Shown here: one piece after another, positions 109-12,005 of the stretch
How the letters are laid out: every line of letters starts with the position of its first letter
Numbering within the stretch: the first letter of the stretch is position 1
Notes under the pieces: model-generated
What the model saw: the letters and a program-made list of their open reading frames with translations, nothing else
What the model was told of the DNA's origin: nothing
Databases searched by the model: none
Source: Faecalimonas sp.
GTDB taxonomy: Bacteria > Bacillota_A > Clostridia > Lachnospirales > Lachnospiraceae
Assembly: GCA_026169575.1 (NCBI GenBank)
Contig: JAPFCT010000009.1
Coordinates: 1 to 13,427 of the forward strand
DNA: 13,427 nt
Direction: 5' to 3'
Made by a program: the position numbers and the translations under genes

Positions 109-120
109 AGGAGGTATCTT

Positions 121-168
121 ATGTTTCAGAATTTATTTCAGAAACTGAACAGGGACGACGATTGTTAG
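121..168 (+). CDS. Asp-codon leader peptide of the aspS attenuator (15 aa)
   Basis: This is a short ORF encoding MFQNLFQKLNRDDDC. A perfect AGGAGG ribosome binding site at 109-114 sits six bases before the ATG. Codons 12-14 are three consecutive Asp codons (GAC GAC GAT, 154-162), followed by one Cys codon and TAG. The stop codon overlaps the 5' base of a 15-bp hairpin (167-203), and an intrinsic terminator follows at 240-279. The next long gene is an aspartyl-tRNA synthetase. Tandem codons for the amino acid charged by the downstream enzyme are the hallmark of ribosome-mediated attenuation, as in the E. coli pheST leader. The peptide probably has no function beyond positioning the ribosome. 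I see all of the sequence elements directly; the regulatory role is inferred. Confidence 0.82.
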   Translation: MFQNLFQKLNRDDDC

Positions 169-279
169 CGTTTGTATCTGTAATTTTCACAGGTACAAGC
201 GCTGATTGTGTTGTGCCTGTGTGGGATATCTTGTCACATACCACACCGGTGAAGTTTTCTTTGCTCGTGTGGTTTTTTT
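167..279 (+). promoter_or_regulatory. Five-segment ribosome-mediated attenuator (Asp-tRNA sensing)
   Basis: Five RNA segments form a chain of alternative pairings. Pairing 1:2 is 167-181 with 189-203: 15 bp, two of them G-U, with a 7-base loop. Pairing 2:3 is 188-198 with 211-221: 11 bp, one G-U. Pairing 3:4 is 214-224 with 241-251: 10 bp around one mismatch. Pairing 4:5 is the terminator, 240-254 with 259-273. Pairs 1:2 and 3:4 can coexist (read-through). Pairs 2:3 and 4:5 can coexist (termination). A ribosome waiting at Asp codons 154-162 leaves segment 1 mostly free, favouring 1:2 then 3:4 and read-through. A ribosome reaching the stop at 166-168 covers segment 1, freeing segment 2 to take segment 3, so the terminator forms. 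Low Asp-tRNA should therefore switch aspS on. The pairings are visible in the sequence; the switching order is inference. Confidence 0.72.
240..279 (+). terminator. Intrinsic terminator of the aspS leader
   Basis: ACCACAC (240-246) pairs with GTGTGGT (267-273). Past a C/C mismatch (247/266) the helix continues as GGTGAAG (248-254) with CTTTGCT (259-265), closing a TTTT loop. Seven T residues (273-279) follow. It lies between the leader peptide and aspS, and its 5' arm can instead pair with 214-224. Confidence 0.85.
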
Positions 280-331
280 GTATCCTTTTTGCTTCCGCGC
301 GGGCACATGATTTTTGAAAGAAGGTGATCGC

Positions 332-388
332 ATGGAACATAGAGACGATGTTCTTACGGATTGGATTTATTTTCCGAACATGGTGTAA
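332..388 (+). CDS. Second small ORF in the aspS leader (18 aa, Asp-rich)
   Basis: This ORF encodes MEHRDDVLTDWIYFPNMV. AAGGTG at 321-326 is a reasonable ribosome binding site five bases before the ATG. Three of its 18 codons are Asp, two of them adjacent at codons 5-6. It lies after the leader terminator, so it would be transcribed only on read-through. Its stop is 28 bases before the aspS start. The ORF sits inside the loop of a possible 11-bp long-range pairing (281-291 with 399-409) that would bury the aspS Shine-Dalgarno. It may be a second translational control element or may be fortuitous. No homology is recognised. Confidence 0.42.
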   Translation: MEHRDDVLTDWIYFPNMV

Positions 389-416
389 AAACGCAACTCA
401 GAAAGGATGATGACTT

Positions 417-2962: not shown

Positions 2963-3421
2963 ATGCGTACACAAAAGAAAACAAACACGAACACAATTAA
3001 AACATTAATGACTGCTCCTATCATCTATTTTTTCTGTTCTATGGCAGGAGGTGTTTTCTACCGGGAATTTACAAAACTATTTGATTTTACCGGGAAAACA
3101 ACCCTCGGTGTCGTACACGGACACCTGCTTCTGCTCGGGACACTGCTCTTTCTTCTGCTTGCAGTTATCTGCAAATTTACTGCACTTGGCGAACAGAAAC
3201 TGTTTCAAAGATTTTTTATCATTTATAACATCGCATTCCCTCTGATGGCAGTCACGCTTCTCGTGCGCGGGATTGTGCAAGTAACAGAGTACCCAATGAC
3301 ACGCATGTTAAACGGAATGCTCTCAGGATTTGCAGGGCTCTCCCACATTTTCCTTGCAGTAGCACTTTTCCTGTTACTTCTCGCTGTCAAAAAAGAACTC
3401 TGTGGAGAAACGGAGCGATAA
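2963..3421 (+). CDS. DUF2871-family membrane protein
   Basis: A 152-aa protein with four membrane segments (about 14-34, 48-70, 84-106, 118-142). It matches my recollection of the DUF2871 family: AGGVFYREFTK after helix 1, a VHGHLLLLG stretch at the start of helix 2, VRGIVQV at the end of helix 3 and GLSHIF in helix 4. Function is unknown. His52, His54 and His128 fall within or at the edge of predicted helices, an arrangement that could bind a metal or heme, but that is speculation. AGGAGG at 2946-2951 precedes the ATG by 11 bases. It forms a likely operon with the preceding membrane gene under the TetR-type operator. No clear terminator follows. Confidence 0.8.
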   Translation: MRTQKKTNTNTIKTLMTAPIIYFFCSMAGGVFYREFTKLFDFTGKTTLGVVHGHLLLLGTLLFLLLAVICKFTALGEQKLFQRFFIIYNIAFPLMAVTLLVRGIVQVTEYPMTRMLNGMLSGFAGLSHIFLAVALFLLLLAVKKELCGETER

Positions 3422-3462: not shown

Positions 3463-3482
3463 ACAGCTTTTTCTCCTATTCT
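3454..3482 (+). promoter_or_regulatory. Promoter of the fluoride-riboswitch transcript
   Basis: TTGACA (3454-3459), a 17-base spacer and TATTCT (3477-3482). The expected start near 3488 coincides with the first base of the riboswitch P1 stem. Confidence 0.78.
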
Positions 3483-3487
3483 TTAAC

Positions 3488-3592
3488 AAGGGAATGAAGT
3501 TCTCCCTTAGTAACTACTAAAACCGCCAGGCGGAGTGTGCCTCCCCTGATTGCTGATGACTTCTGCTGTTTGCAGGACTCATCAGCTTTTTT
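3488..3592 (+). promoter_or_regulatory. Fluoride riboswitch (crcB motif) with expression platform
   Basis: P1 is AAGGGA (3488-3493) paired with TCCCTT (3503-3508), closing the loop ATGAAGTTC. This matches the conserved loop pattern AUGgnrUUC of crcB RNAs. It is followed by an unpaired A-rich linker, AACCGCC (3521-3527), a variable stem, and the highly conserved 3' strand GCTGATGACTTCTGC (3552-3566). Fluoride binding stabilises this fold and in most crcB RNAs turns the gene on. Here the conserved 3' strand is also the 5' arm of an intrinsic terminator, so ligand binding should block termination. The call rests on recognised consensus elements in order; no covariance search was run. Confidence 0.88.
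3552..3592 (+). terminator. Riboswitch-controlled intrinsic terminator
   Basis: GCTGATGA (3552-3559) pairs with TCATCAGC (3579-3586). After a C/C mismatch, TTCTGC (3561-3566) pairs with GCAGGA (3572-3577), closing a 5-base loop. Six T residues (3587-3592) follow. The left arm is shared with the fluoride aptamer. Confidence 0.88.
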
Positions 3593-3635: not shown

Positions 3636-4811
3636 ATGTTATTTAGTATTGCTATTTTGTTATTACTTGGCATGTCACTCGGCGCTCTCTGTAAAAAACT
3701 GCATCTTCCGGCGTTGACCGGAATGCTGCTTGCCGGAATCCTTCTCGGCCCTTATGCACTCAACCTGATCGATTCCTCGATCTTGTCCATATCCGCTGAT
3801 CTTCGCAAGATCGCCCTGATCATTATTTTGATCCGTGCAGGATTATCACTGAACCTGGAAGATTTGAAAAAAGTGGGACGCCCCGCGATCCTGATGTGTT
3901 TTGTTCCCGCCTGCTTTGAGATGGCAGGAATGATACTTCTCGCACCAAAGCTGCTTGGCATCACACTTCTTGATGCAGCGATTCTCGGTGCTGTCATTGC
4001 CGCGGTCTCCCCTGCTGTCATCGTTCCGACCATGGTGCGGCTTATGGAAGAAGGTCATGGCACAAAAAAAGGGATCCCACAGCTGATCCTTGCCGGAGCT
4101 TCCGTCGATGATGTATTCGTGATCGTTGTATTTACCGCCTTTACCGGACTTGCTGCCGGAAACTCCGTGTCCATCAGAAGTTTTGTCAATATTCCTGTAT
4201 CCATTTTCTTCGGAATGATCGCGGGACTTGGGATTGGTCTGCTTTTCTCGGCTTTCTTTTCCCGGATCCATATCCGGGATACTGCAAAGGTGATTCTTTT
4301 CCTCTGTATTTCCTTTTTGCTCGTCACACTGGAAGATATCTGTACAGATGTGATTCCTTTTGCTTCCCTGATCGCAGTGATGGCGATCGGGGTCGCCCTG
4401 CAGCAGAAGAATGAAGTACTTGCACTCAGACTCTCCGCGAAATGCAATAAGCTGTGGGTCGGAGCAGAGATCCTGCTCTTTGTCCTTGTCGGTGCAACGG
4501 TAGATCTTCGCTATCTGAAATCGGCCGGAGGAACCGCGGTTCTTCTGCTTCTGCTTGTCCTTCTCTTTCGGATGGCGGGTGTCTTTCTCTGTCTTTTTGG
4601 CACAAATCTTACAAAAAAGGAGCGGCTTTTCTGTATGGTCGCCTACACCCCAAAGGCAACTGTCCAGGCGGCTATTGGCGGAATCCCGCTCTCTCTTGGA
4701 CTTTCCTGCGGAAATCTCGTACTCACCGTTGCAGTTGTGGCGATCCTTCTGACAGCGCCGCTTGGAGCCTTCTGCATCGAGAACAGCTATAAAAAACTTT
4801 TAACCCGTTGA
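3636..4811 (+). CDS. Cation:proton antiporter-family protein, fluoride-riboswitch controlled
   Basis: A 391-aa integral membrane protein with about 11-13 hydrophobic helices, of the sodium/hydrogen exchanger (CPA) fold. Family features visible are LTGMLLAGILLGP (27-39), RAGL (67-70), SPAVIVP (125-131), an acidic pair in AGASVDD (153-159) at the place of the CPA ion-binding carboxylates, LVGATVDL (284-291) and TPKATVQAAIGG (338-349). It ends soon after the membrane domain, with no cytoplasmic TrkA-N/RCK regulatory domain of the Kef type. AGGAG at 3623-3627 is the ribosome binding site. Because the gene is under a fluoride riboswitch, the likely role is surviving fluoride, either by exporting it or by restoring ion/pH balance. 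Antiporters of this class are a known gene type behind crcB RNAs. The substrate cannot be read from the sequence. Confidence 0.88.
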   Translation: MLFSIAILLLLGMSLGALCKKLHLPALTGMLLAGILLGPYALNLIDSSILSISADLRKIALIIILIRAGLSLNLEDLKKVGRPAILMCFVPACFEMAGMILLAPKLLGITLLDAAILGAVIAAVSPAVIVPTMVRLMEEGHGTKKGIPQLILAGASVDDVFVIVVFTAFTGLAAGNSVSIRSFVNIPVSIFFGMIAGLGIGLLFSAFFSRIHIRDTAKVILFLCISFLLVTLEDICTDVIPFASLIAVMAIGVALQQKNEVLALRLSAKCNKLWVGAEILLFVLVGATVDLRYLKSAGGTAVLLLLLVLLFRMAGVFLCLFGTNLTKKERLFCMVAYTPKATVQAAIGGIPLSLGLSCGNLVLTVAVVAILLTAPLGAFCIENSYKKLLTR

Positions 4812-8832: not shown

Positions 8833-9681
8833 TTATTCTCCGCCAAGTTTGTTGGCTACCAGCCATCCAAGTCCAAATGTCACTACTCCGATTCCGATCG
8901 TCACTACTGACAGTCCTGACCAGTTCGTCTTCATCAGGATCGCGATCGGCGATGCAACGATCAGACCAATGATTCCATAGTACGCGTGGATCTCCGCCTT
9001 CGAGAAAATAAATTCGATCAGCTTCGCGATCACTCCGATTCCGATCAGAACACCAATTCCAAACGGTGCAAGTACGCCGACACCCTTCATCAGCCCTGCC
9101 ATATCAAATTTTACAAGTGAATCTACAAATAAGTTAATCGTCTTTAAGATCACATCATAATATCCAAGCAGCATCAGCATCATCGAACCACTGACCCCCG
9201 GCACGACCATCGTAGCCGCTGCGACAACACCGACAAAGAATAATTTGATCACATTGACCAAACCAAACGTAACATCTGCCGCTTTTCCTCCGGTCTCTCC
9301 GAGCATCGCCATCACGATCACGACTGCAAAAAAGACAAGAAACGGAATGATTTTCCCGATCGTGACAGAATGTCCTTTCACCTTCTTTACAATATACGGA
9401 AGACTTCCGACGATCAATCCGCAAAATGCGAAATTCGTCGGGATCGGATAAGTATCCAGTAAAAATTCAAATAGTTTCGATAATACTACGATTGCGATCC
9501 CTGCCCCTGCAAAAATCGGGATCAAAAGTTTCATACTCTGTTTAAATTCGCTCTTTAAATGGGTGATCGAGTGGATCAGCTTGTCATAAAGACCCATGGC
9601 AACCATCATCGTACCGCCGCTGACTCCCGGAATAATATTGGCAATTCCGACAACCATCCCCTGCAATATCTGTTTCAGCAT
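8833..9681 (-). CDS. DUF368/PopT-family polyprenyl-phosphate transporter
   Basis: A 282-aa membrane protein of the DUF368 family, members of which (PopT) were shown to recycle undecaprenyl phosphate across the cytoplasmic membrane for cell-wall synthesis. The two-fold internal repeat is visible: PGVSGGTM at 18-25 and PGVSGSMM at 161-168, each followed by a (M/L)GLYD or LLGYYD stretch. About eight hydrophobic segments follow the repeat logic. I start at the ATG at 9681, where AGGAG lies eight bases upstream on the minus strand; an in-frame upstream start at 9747 would place a basic non-membrane stretch before the conserved beginning and has no ribosome binding site. The gene has its own promoter (9716-9744) and terminator (8762-8807), so it is a single-gene unit. 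The family call is confident; the lipid substrate is inherited from the family. Confidence 0.9.
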   Translation of the reverse strand: MLKQILQGMVVGIANIIPGVSGGTMMVAMGLYDKLIHSITHLKSEFKQSMKLLIPIFAGAGIAIVVLSKLFEFLLDTYPIPTNFAFCGLIVGSLPYIVKKVKGHSVTIGKIIPFLVFFAVVIVMAMLGETGGKAADVTFGLVNVIKLFFVGVVAAATMVVPGVSGSMMLMLLGYYDVILKTINLFVDSLVKFDMAGLMKGVGVLAPFGIGVLIGIGVIAKLIEFIFSKAEIHAYYGIIGLIVASPIAILMKTNWSGLSVVTIGIGVVTFGLGWLVANKLGGE

Positions 9682-9708
9682 CCATCCTTCTCCTTTCCAA
9701 TGCGCTCT

Positions 9709-9744
9709 GCTAAAAAATTTAGCATAAATCCTTCTTTTTTTCAA
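9709..9744 (-). promoter_or_regulatory. Promoter of the DUF368 gene with a palindrome over the -10
   Basis: On the minus strand, TTGAAA (9744-9739) is followed by 17 bases and TAAATT (9721-9716), preceded by TGC as an extended -10. The -10 lies inside a 15-base inverted repeat GCTAAAAAATTTAGC (9709-9723, + strand reading), which could be an operator or chance in an AT-rich stretch. Confidence 0.6.
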
Positions 9745-9798
9745 CATTTCCGCTCTGATTTACGAAAATTTCATTTCTTGTTCGCGTCTGCCTGTCTC

Positions 9799-11001
9799 TT
9801 ACTGTCCCTGCTCTGAAAAATACTGTCTTGCAAGCTCCTGAAATTTCGGAAGCGCTCCAACGATCGTCTCATATGCCACACAATAGGCGATCCGCACATA
9901 TCCCGGACATCCAAAAGAACTTCCCGGAACAAGGAGGATATTGTATTTTTTTGCTGCCTCGCAGAATGCTTTCTCATCTTCGATCGGAGATTTCATAAAC
10001 AGATAAAAGGCTCCCTGCGGCCGGATGCATGTAAAACCACACTCTGTCAGTCCATTATAGAGCATCTCCCGGTTCTTATTATAATAAGTAAGATCTGTCT
10101 TCTCATCCATGCATTTTGCCACAACTTTCTGAAGCAGGGTCGGTGCATTGACAAATCCCAGGATCCGGTTTGCCACACCTGCCGCCGCGATCACCTCCTC
10201 GCTGTCTGCCACCTCATCGGGAATGACAAGATAGCCGATCCGCTCTCCCGGAAGAGACAGCGACTTACTGTAAGAATATGCCACGATCGTATTTTTATAG
10301 TACTTTGTCAGATAAGGTACTTCAGCTCCGTCAAAGACAAGCTCTCTGTAAGGTTCATCGGAGATCAGATAGATATCTGTCCCATACTCCTTCTGCTTCT
10401 CCTCCATGATTTGTGCCATTTCCCGGATCGTCTGTTCAGAGTAGATCACTCCAGTCGGATTGTTCGGCGTATTGACAATGACTGCCTTTGTCCGGGGCGT
10501 GATCTTTGCCGCAAATTCATCAAGCTTTGGCTGAAAAGTTTCTGTATCCGGCGAGATTTCCACGAGAATGCCATCCACATTTGCCGTGTAACTCCGGTAC
10601 TCTCCAAAATATGGTGCGAAAACAATCACTTCCTCCTGCGGATTGACAAGCGTTTTCAGGATTACATTCAGTCCCCCTGCCGCCCCCACTGTCATAATGA
10701 TATTTTTGGCAGAAAATCTCGTCTGAAATCTCTCATTTAAAGACTCTGCCACCGTTTTCCGCACTTCTTCATATCCTGCATTGCTGTTTGTGTAGCCATG
10801 AAGTTCCAGAGGCTTCTCCTCTGTGACAAGGGAAATGATCGCCTCTTTCACCGCCTGCGGCGCCTCCACATTTGGATTGCCGAGGCTGAAATCAAACACA
10901 TTCTCTCTTCCGTACTGCTTTGCAAGGCGGTTTCCCTCCTCAAACATTGCGCGGATGGCGGAACTGTTTGCCACCATCCCTTTCATCTTTTCTGCGATCA
11001 T
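9799..11001 (-). CDS. Pyridoxal-phosphate aminotransferase, class I/II
   Basis: A 400-aa cytoplasmic fold-type I aminotransferase of the aspartate/aromatic aminotransferase superfamily. Visible features are FDFSLGNPN (36-44), the GAAGGLN cofactor-phosphate loop (106-112), NTPNNPTG (177-184) with the ring-contacting Asn, SDEPY (214-218) with Asp215 for the pyridine nitrogen, the Schiff-base Lys246 in SYSKSLSLPGERIGY, and the substrate carboxylate Arg370 in GYVRIAYC. Length is normal for the family. AAGGAGAGG lies just before the ATG on the minus strand. The start overlaps the stop of the upstream acyltransferase-like gene in an ATGA arrangement, so the two are translationally coupled. The amino-acid substrate cannot be chosen from the motifs. 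No strong terminator follows within the 117-base gap. Confidence 0.93.
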   Translation of the reverse strand: MIAEKMKGMVANSSAIRAMFEEGNRLAKQYGRENVFDFSLGNPNVEAPQAVKEAIISLVTEEKPLELHGYTNSNAGYEEVRKTVAESLNERFQTRFSAKNIIMTVGAAGGLNVILKTLVNPQEEVIVFAPYFGEYRSYTANVDGILVEISPDTETFQPKLDEFAAKITPRTKAVIVNTPNNPTGVIYSEQTIREMAQIMEEKQKEYGTDIYLISDEPYRELVFDGAEVPYLTKYYKNTIVAYSYSKSLSLPGERIGYLVIPDEVADSEEVIAAAGVANRILGFVNAPTLLQKVVAKCMDEKTDLTYYNKNREMLYNGLTECGFTCIRPQGAFYLFMKSPIEDEKAFCEAAKKYNILLVPGSSFGCPGYVRIAYCVAYETIVGALPKFQELARQYFSEQGQ

Positions 11002-11906
11002 ACGATCCTCTCCTTCTTTGTCACAGTTCCTTTTTCCACAAGGAATGCCGGGCGGTAGGAAAGCTTTGCCTTTCGAAGTCCTTCTGCCCCGGTATCCTCC
11101 TCACGGTTAATATATTTGTAATTCCTGCATTCATGCTCTACAAACTGCTGGTTGATCATCGGGTAGGCGCCCTGGATCTCCGCAAATGCTTTCTCAATAT
11201 GCACGACAAACGTATCTGCACTGACTTCTTCTCCCAGTGTAAATGCAACTACCTTTCCATCTACCCGCAGAAGACCTCCGGTCAGTTCCAGTTCTTTGTA
11301 AAGGCGCAGAGAATTAAGTGTCACACACATTTCCGCATTTTTCTCTTCATCTGCCTCACATCCGTTTTCACATCTCCACTGAAGCGCCATCTGGAAGCAC
11401 TCTTCAATATTTTCTTCTGTGATTCTTTCATAAGACCAGTCTTCATTGACCAGCTTAAACTTATTGATATGATTCCGCTTGCCATGCAGCTTCTTGCCGG
11501 AAAGGGTCTCCAGCTTCTCGGACTCATAGACATAATCTGCACTGTCTCTGTCGTACTCAATCTCAAACTGTCCCGGATACCACTCCTCCAGCTGTTCAAA
11601 ATTTTCTTCTGTGACACAGTACATCGTAAACGGATATCCCTGCTCTTTGCTGTATTCCATCAGCACTTCGATCGCCCGTCTCACATCGTCCGGCGCCCCG
11701 ACCGGATAGGCGAAAGACAGTCCATTTTCATTTGACCGGAAAACTACCGTGTTTTCTACCATCGCATAGCCTACCTGGTAAAACTTCGCCCACAAATATA
11801 CATTGACAAATGTGCGCTCACAACTTCTTGACGGATAATTCCGAAAATAGGACGTCAAAAGTTCTTTGTCTTCCAAAGACGGTCTTTGAAAATCTATCGT
11901 TATCAT
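10998..11906 (-). CDS. DUF2156/LPG-synthase C-terminal-like acyltransferase fold protein
   Basis: A 302-aa soluble protein of the DUF2156 type, related to the C-terminal GNAT-fold domain of phosphatidylglycerol lysyltransferases (aminoacyl-tRNA-dependent transferases), but lacking any membrane domain. Recognisable stretches are ADYVYESEKLETLSGKKLHG then KRNHINKF (123-150) and NREEDTGAEGLRKAKLSYRP (267-286). The start is the ATG at 11906, with AGAGGTGG upstream on the minus strand; the reading frame is open to 11990 but without a ribosome binding site. It ends in a 4-bp overlap with the aminotransferase gene. Substrate and product are unknown. The coupling to an aminotransferase hints at amino-acid or acyl-amino metabolism, which is inference. 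Confidence 0.85.
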   Translation of the reverse strand: MITIDFQRPSLEDKELLTSYFRNYPSRSCERTFVNVYLWAKFYQVGYAMVENTVVFRSNENGLSFAYPVGAPDDVRRAIEVLMEYSKEQGYPFTMYCVTEENFEQLEEWYPGQFEIEYDRDSADYVYESEKLETLSGKKLHGKRNHINKFKLVNEDWSYERITEENIEECFQMALQWRCENGCEADEEKNAEMCVTLNSLRLYKELELTGGLLRVDGKVVAFTLGEEVSADTFVVHIEKAFAEIQGAYPMINQQFVEHECRNYKYINREEDTGAEGLRKAKLSYRPAFLVEKGTVTKKERIV

Positions 11907-12005
11907 TTTATTCCACCTCTTCTCAAAATCTGCTTTCATCTGTTTCTGTTTTTCTGCTTCCTGCCTGCTTCTTTGGAAGCACGTTTCCATGCAATTTCTG
12001 TATGA

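Follow-up and report, generated by a model that had tools for sequence, protein, structure and literature searches.

What controls the aspartyl-tRNA synthetase (AspRS) gene aspS at positions 417–1727 of a Faecalimonas contig, and which tRNA does its product serve? The window, that is, the whole stretch of 13,427 nucleotides (nt) of contig JAPFCT010000009.1 that was analyzed, carries ahead of this gene a short open reading frame (ORF) with a run of Asp codons, a hairpin and an intrinsic terminator, which a first-pass annotation had read as an attenuator. From sequence comparison, we regard this region as very probably an attenuator of the ribosome-mediated type, acting on transcription in response to the charge of tRNA-Asp and governing an auxiliary AspRS. 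All features described below lie on the forward strand.

An aspartate-codon leader ahead of aspS

The leader ORF (121–168), identified by translation and by a comparison of Shine-Dalgarno (SD) sequences among leaders, encodes MFQNLFQKLNRDDDC, with Asp codons at 154–162 and the stop codon at 166–168. The perfect AGGAGG named in the first-pass annotation is present at 109–114, with a spacer of 6 nt before the start codon. The Asp codons had been placed directly before the stop; in fact, a Cys codon (163–165) separates the run from the TAG. A hairpin had also been described, of 15 bp and touched by the stop codon, and it was recovered as a stem of 18 pairs (164–181 with 189–206; −24.3 kcal/mol, equalled by none of 200 shuffles) that contains the stop rather than merely touching it. 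The strong terminator follows as annotated at 240–273 plus a T run (−17 kcal/mol, also equalled in 0 of 200 shuffles), and the leader from 100 to 420 folds with a z of −5.9 against 100 shuffles. The downstream gene had been correctly called an AspRS; its product, an archaeal-type AspRS of 436 residues, scores 535.2 bits (cut-off 353) with the NCBIfam model PRK05159, aspartate--tRNA(Asn) ligase.

An Rfam scan of positions 1–450 returned no family at gathering score. A T-box was rejected for this leader, in agreement with the first-pass annotation, as no match was found at gathering nor, within the same 450 positions, at E values up to 10. The trpB motif RF04312 was also rejected (26 bits, where gathering requires 59), and its resemblance to the leader is taken as an analogous shape or chance.

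Conservation of the leader among relatives

A scan of species genomes identified at least 587 relatives of aspS, of which the best 80, with 54–75% identity and record titles mostly naming Lachnospiraceae, genera of that family, or Clostridia, were retained. The first-pass annotation had proposed looking in homologous upstream regions for a conserved short ORF with an Asp run and covarying stems, and the full leader, with short ORF, GAC-GAC-GAT–like run and hairpin, was present at 76 of these 80 loci. Three of the others could not be assessed, one being cut inside the leader (L013) and two having only 96 and 250 nt upstream (L056 and L076); the fourth (L071) carries a T-box and falls outside the leader clade. 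Because the leader is conserved at 76 of 80 loci, a chance origin was rejected, and the fit between codon run and enzyme claimed at first pass stands.

Codons and SD sequences were counted in 77 leaders, the window included. The first codon of the run is GAC in 76 and GAT in one, the second GAC in 70, GAT in five and AAT in two, and the third GAT in all 77, giving Asp-Asp-Asp in 75 leaders and Asp-Asn-Asp in two (L041 and L066). GACGAC is conserved at the nucleotide level, where it is able to pair with strand C (see below), and the third codon is invariant; one leader (L052, from the same gene as L098) reads GAT GAT GAT, which keeps Asp and alters the RNA. Between run and stop lie zero (9 leaders), one (40), four (20), six (6), eight (1) or nine (1) sense codons. 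A start codon with an SD sequence, under a lenient pattern, was found in 76 of the 77, and the other two frames are open across the same 45 nt in just 13 and 7. A hairpin of −12 kcal/mol or lower with at least four T in the next eight bases occurs in 74, a few of which are clearly the wrong hairpin.

A covariance model of the leader (R1) identified one strong site per genome, adjoining an AspRS gene, in 18 of 19 genomes, the exception being the genome of L071. In a family sample, R1 matched 19 of 299 genomes at E 1e-4: 17 matches adjoin an AspRS gene (one of bacterial type, L118, and one split, L111), one is a variant (L120) and one is weak (L124). R1 matches occurred in six of 391 genomes of a class sample, and a generalized model (R2) matched five of 392 genomes of an order sample, including its own centre, G061; the variant L120 was the only Asn-run leader before a nucleosidase, and a search of the genus (three genomes) gave nothing further. 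The weak R1 matches L110 and L124 were set aside as probable chance, with no relative of the window AspRS within their 3 kb. At L111 (G171:C17), the aspS after the leader is split across two reading frames in the assembly.

Alternative pairings and a model of attenuation

The attenuator reading proposed at first pass holds up; its simple layout of a hairpin plus a terminator does not, as the leader contains more strands and the Asp codons themselves can pair. Strand Z (AACAGGGACGACG, 148–160), defined by folding, pair counts and concurrent changes, covers codons of the leader ORF, most of the Asp run among them, and is a potential partner of strand C. Strands A (164–181, holding the stop codon) and B (188–206) form the 5′ and 3′ arms of the hairpin by folding and covariation, B being also an alternative partner of C. 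Strand C (TGTTGTGCCTGTGTGG, 209–224), assigned from pair counts and ribosome-modelled folding, is the candidate switch strand, with Z, B or D as partner. Strand D (CCACACCGG, 241–249), placed by folding, is the 5′ arm of the terminator and could pair with C as an antiterminator or with strand E, which together with the T run (264–279; from sequence and fold) forms the 3′ arm. Finally, strand F (294–304), placed by pairing energy against shuffles, is a potential partner of E, or of C, in the read-through transcript.

Covariation was examined in an alignment (A1) of the 77 leaders less eight rows, seven with long hairpin loops and one near-duplicate. It backs A:B and B:C and also, less strongly, Z:C, with eight concurrent changes between column 7 of Z and column 94 of C. 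The covarying positions of Z, B and C correspond to C150, C190 and G219 of the window. Sequence comparison establishes the ORF with its codon run and the strands with the covariation between them. Ribosome-modelled folding covered 68 loci, leaving out nine of the 77 in which the terminator or D was not reliably found. A modelled ribosome at the first Asp codon gave the antiterminator C:D in 62 of the 68, and C:D was rare with the ribosome near the stop. With no ribosome, the mean probability of C:Z was 0.47 versus 0.30 for C:D (0.54 versus 0.04 in the window). The region thus combines an ORF with an SD sequence, a cognate codon run, a terminator, and mutually exclusive conserved helices among Z, A, B, C and D, these last with the weaker points gathered below. 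Pairing of E (264–273) with F (294–304), ahead of the ribosome-binding site of a second ORF, reaches −19.4 kcal/mol in the window and beats shuffles in 33 of the 41 loci compared.

We infer the ribosome positions, the polarity and the inducing signal, which would be low Asp-tRNA through starvation or an AspRS inhibitor. The leader ORF would be translated by a ribosome trailing RNA polymerase. When Asp-tRNA is scarce, this ribosome would stall on GAC-GAC-GAT, covering Z and leaving A mostly free; the A:B hairpin would then form, and C, deprived of both Z and B, would pair with D and permit read-through into aspS. When Asp-tRNA is plentiful, the ribosome would reach the stop inside A, and B:C and D:E would form, leading to termination. 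If no ribosome occupies the leader, Z:C may close around hairpin A:B, and the terminator would again be possible.

Several observations weigh against this model or against a strict rule of Asp runs. In the pairing test, the best partner of strand C in the window is F, not D, and swapping of the C strand is a weak test of C:D (50 of 77). The two Asp-Asn-Asp leaders depart from the rule, as does the Asp-Glu-Asp leader of an archaeal-type AspRS-like gene (L200, G695:C42), and related switches ahead of other genes are Asn-rich. An arrest-peptide leader, in which the nascent peptide near RDDD would halt translation under the influence of a drug or metabolite rather than of tRNA-Asp charge, would make the Asp run a stalling motif; the near invariance of the run and its position mostly after Arg (AGG in 72 and AGA in one of 77) agree with such a motif. 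However, the peptide ahead of the run varies in sequence and in length, from 4 to 28 codons, the leader controls AspRS of two different sequence types, and Asp-Asn-Asp variants exist, so we consider an arrest peptide improbable and favor attenuation by tRNA-Asp charge.

The controlled enzyme and its T-box paralogs

The tRNA served by the enzyme was approached through two positions of the anticodon-binding domain, where we take His and Pro to mark a nondiscriminating AspRS and other residues a discriminating one. The window AspRS carries Tyr33 and Lys83 at these positions and hence lacks the His/Pro signature. Its best match among solved structures, 1n9w, is an aspartyl-tRNA synthetase 2, presumably from Thermus; among aligned structures, 1n9w and 1wyd carry His/Pro and 1b8a Trp/Lys. 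Pfam at E 0.001 reported no OB-fold domain in the window AspRS. Since three leader-type relatives match this domain more weakly (E 2.5e-3 to 7.7e-7) than three T-box–type ones (5e-12 to 1.4e-10), it is read as diverged rather than absent.

Among 28 genomes examined, 27 of them with the leader, a bacterial-type AspRS scored above cut-off in 27 (the exception being G043) and two archaeal-type copies did so in 18, and the leader-controlled AspRS looks auxiliary. We sampled 43 leaderless archaeal-type copies (30 best-scoring and 13 others, including L159, the gene of the genome of L071), and found a T-box motif in 40 and an Asp-run motif in none. For L071, L131 and L135, cmscan alignments show AAC as the T-box specifier, and AAC followed by A could be read by eye in 38 of the 40 T-box strings; of the remaining two, L159 and L166, the former has AAC in its cmscan alignment. 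At the discrimination positions, the 43 leaderless copies carry His in 43 and Pro in 42, and L071, with its T-box, also carries His/Pro. In contrast, 78 proteins from the best 80 (without L071 and the truncated L056) carry Tyr in 69 (His in seven) and Lys or Arg in 73, with Pro in none. The leader group forms a single clade of 79 members (support 0.80), and the change therefore counts as one event among archaeal-type enzymes.

The first-pass annotation had held that the enzyme serves tRNA-Asp, and this gains indirect support from the absence in leader-type enzymes of the presumed His/Pro mark of their T-box paralogs. Leader-type AspRS would accordingly be specific for tRNA-Asp, and the name that the database gives them, aspartate--tRNA(Asn) ligase, may be a misnomer in the leader clade. 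Related AspRS paralogs of one bacterial family are divided between two kinds of control, by a T-box with an Asn specifier and by a leader with Asp codons. The choice of regulator tracks the residues that we take to set tRNA-Asp versus tRNA-Asn specificity, so whether regulator and enzyme specificity evolved together can be tested.

The same switch before other genes

Leaders of this kind are not confined to archaeal-type aspS. In genome G250, a second bacterial-type AspRS lies behind an Asp-run leader, MYRLKFAKLHRDDDIWRL. This AspRS reads RKVSRNLG, and RDHGG stands at that place in L190, L192 and L196, three other second copies of bacterial type that carry a T-box motif; the His of RDHGG is presumably a mark of nondiscriminating bacterial AspRS. 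A related switch in G669, G549 and G509 encodes LNNGYNI, with three Asn and no Asp, ahead of a T-box. This T-box was checked in L184 and L186 (89–90 bits, just under gathering; specifier AAC in L186), and the gene that follows aligns with second bacterial-type AspRS copies. The Asn-rich form of the switch is recorded at L184, L186 and L187. Finally, in G061 an Asn-Asn-Asn run, MYYSVKCFHLNGNNN (L120, G061:C176:12573–12653), stands ahead of a second methylthioadenosine/S-adenosylhomocysteine (MTA/SAH) nucleosidase, and another, higher-scoring copy lies elsewhere in the genome; any role assigned to this single case is a guess.

These cases suggest a broader, tentative reading, which we hold to be possible and rather doubtful, in which the switch is a portable module of a drug-bypass type and its codon run acts as an address label for the threatened tRNA. 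An Asp run would then lead to a spare AspRS of either of two types past the nondiscriminating state, an Asn run to a spare nucleosidase that could destroy adenosine-type inhibitors of asparaginyl-tRNA synthetase (AsnRS), and in another group the switch would act alongside a tandem Asn T-box ahead of an AspRS. The label codons would also serve as a lock in the absence of a ribosome, which only a ribosome halted on the label or short of it would open. If these genes are drug-bypass copies, the leaders would indicate natural inhibitors of AspRS and AsnRS in the habitats of the hosts.

Other features of the window

A second Asp-containing ORF, overlooked at first pass, lies 3′ of the terminator (ORF2, 332–388, MEHRDDVLTDWIYFPNMV), with an SD sequence AAGGTGAT at 321–328, a hairpin (335–340/348–353) directly after its start codon, and Asp at codons 5, 6 and 10. 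ORF2 was sought at 79 loci with a script whose conditions were Asp at codon 5 and a partial stem. It gave 66 hits, of which L007 is clearly false. For the 65 that remain, Asp stands at codon 10, on which no condition was set, in all 65 and at codon 6 in 54. The stem varies with compensation, as in GGACAT/ATGTCC, GAACAT/ATGTTC (window), CAGCAT/ATGTTG and CGGTAT/ATACCG.

The neighborhood offered no conserved functional clue, the commonest neighbor family occurring at nine of 79 loci. Searches at E limits of 1e-60 and 1e-40 gave no evidence of plasmid carriage of the clade; 19 plasmid and eight phage records matched, all below 60% identity. Elsewhere in the window, a fluoride riboswitch (3481–3572; 37.6 bits, gathering 34) precedes a gene (3636–4811) that cation:proton antiporter models match weakly, and other genes encode a DUF2871 protein (2963–3421), an undecaprenyl phosphate translocase-like protein (8833–9747) and a phosphatidylglycerol lysyltransferase C-terminal domain (10998–11990).

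Comparison with known systems

By its title, the paper of Vecchione and Sello 2010 reports ribosome-mediated attenuation of an auxiliary, antibiotic-resistant TrpRS gene, said to be in Streptomyces and to involve Trp codons. So described, this gene resembles the window in that a spare synthetase gene is induced via its own leader and differs in using Trp. Asn-specifier T-boxes stand before other AspRS copies, as described above (compare Saad et al. 2012, by its title). Like the window leader, they place paralogous AspRS under control by tRNA and a terminator; unlike it, they bind tRNA directly, and no T-box match was found at the window.

Exchange of T-boxes for leader peptides before synthetase genes is already known in bacilli, where His leaders replace T-boxes before the hisS paralogs hisZ and hisS* (main text of PMC2965389). 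As in the window, these are synthetase-family paralogs of Firmicutes with a cognate codon-run leader where relatives use a T-box, although the amino acid is His rather than Asp, neither aspS nor aspartyl occurs in that main text, and its passages on these leaders show no link to enzyme specificity. In Rhodobacterales, the uORFC-8-2 motif before cysS is similarly a predicted attenuator of a synthetase gene with tandem cognate codons, in alphaproteobacteria and with Cys instead of Asp (PMC8632094, in part). A table in the review PMC9437257 has a dash under auxiliary function of duplicated AspRS. For Shewanella aspS, a 5′ untranslated region motif has been predicted ("tRNA synthetase leader", with terminator), without a leader peptide in the available part of PMC2659441. 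Titles and openings of abstracts contained no Asp-codon attenuator of aspS, a coverage that took in few subscription papers and leaves an earlier description possible. The closest counterpart of the proposed lock is the Shewanella leuA attenuator, for which an anti-antiterminator formed from leader-peptide codons has been proposed (PMC2659441, in part), in a leucine operon of gammaproteobacteria. On the sequence evidence, we rate the Asp-codon leader before aspS as a fresh variant of ribosome-mediated attenuation, with the His leaders and leuA as its precedents.
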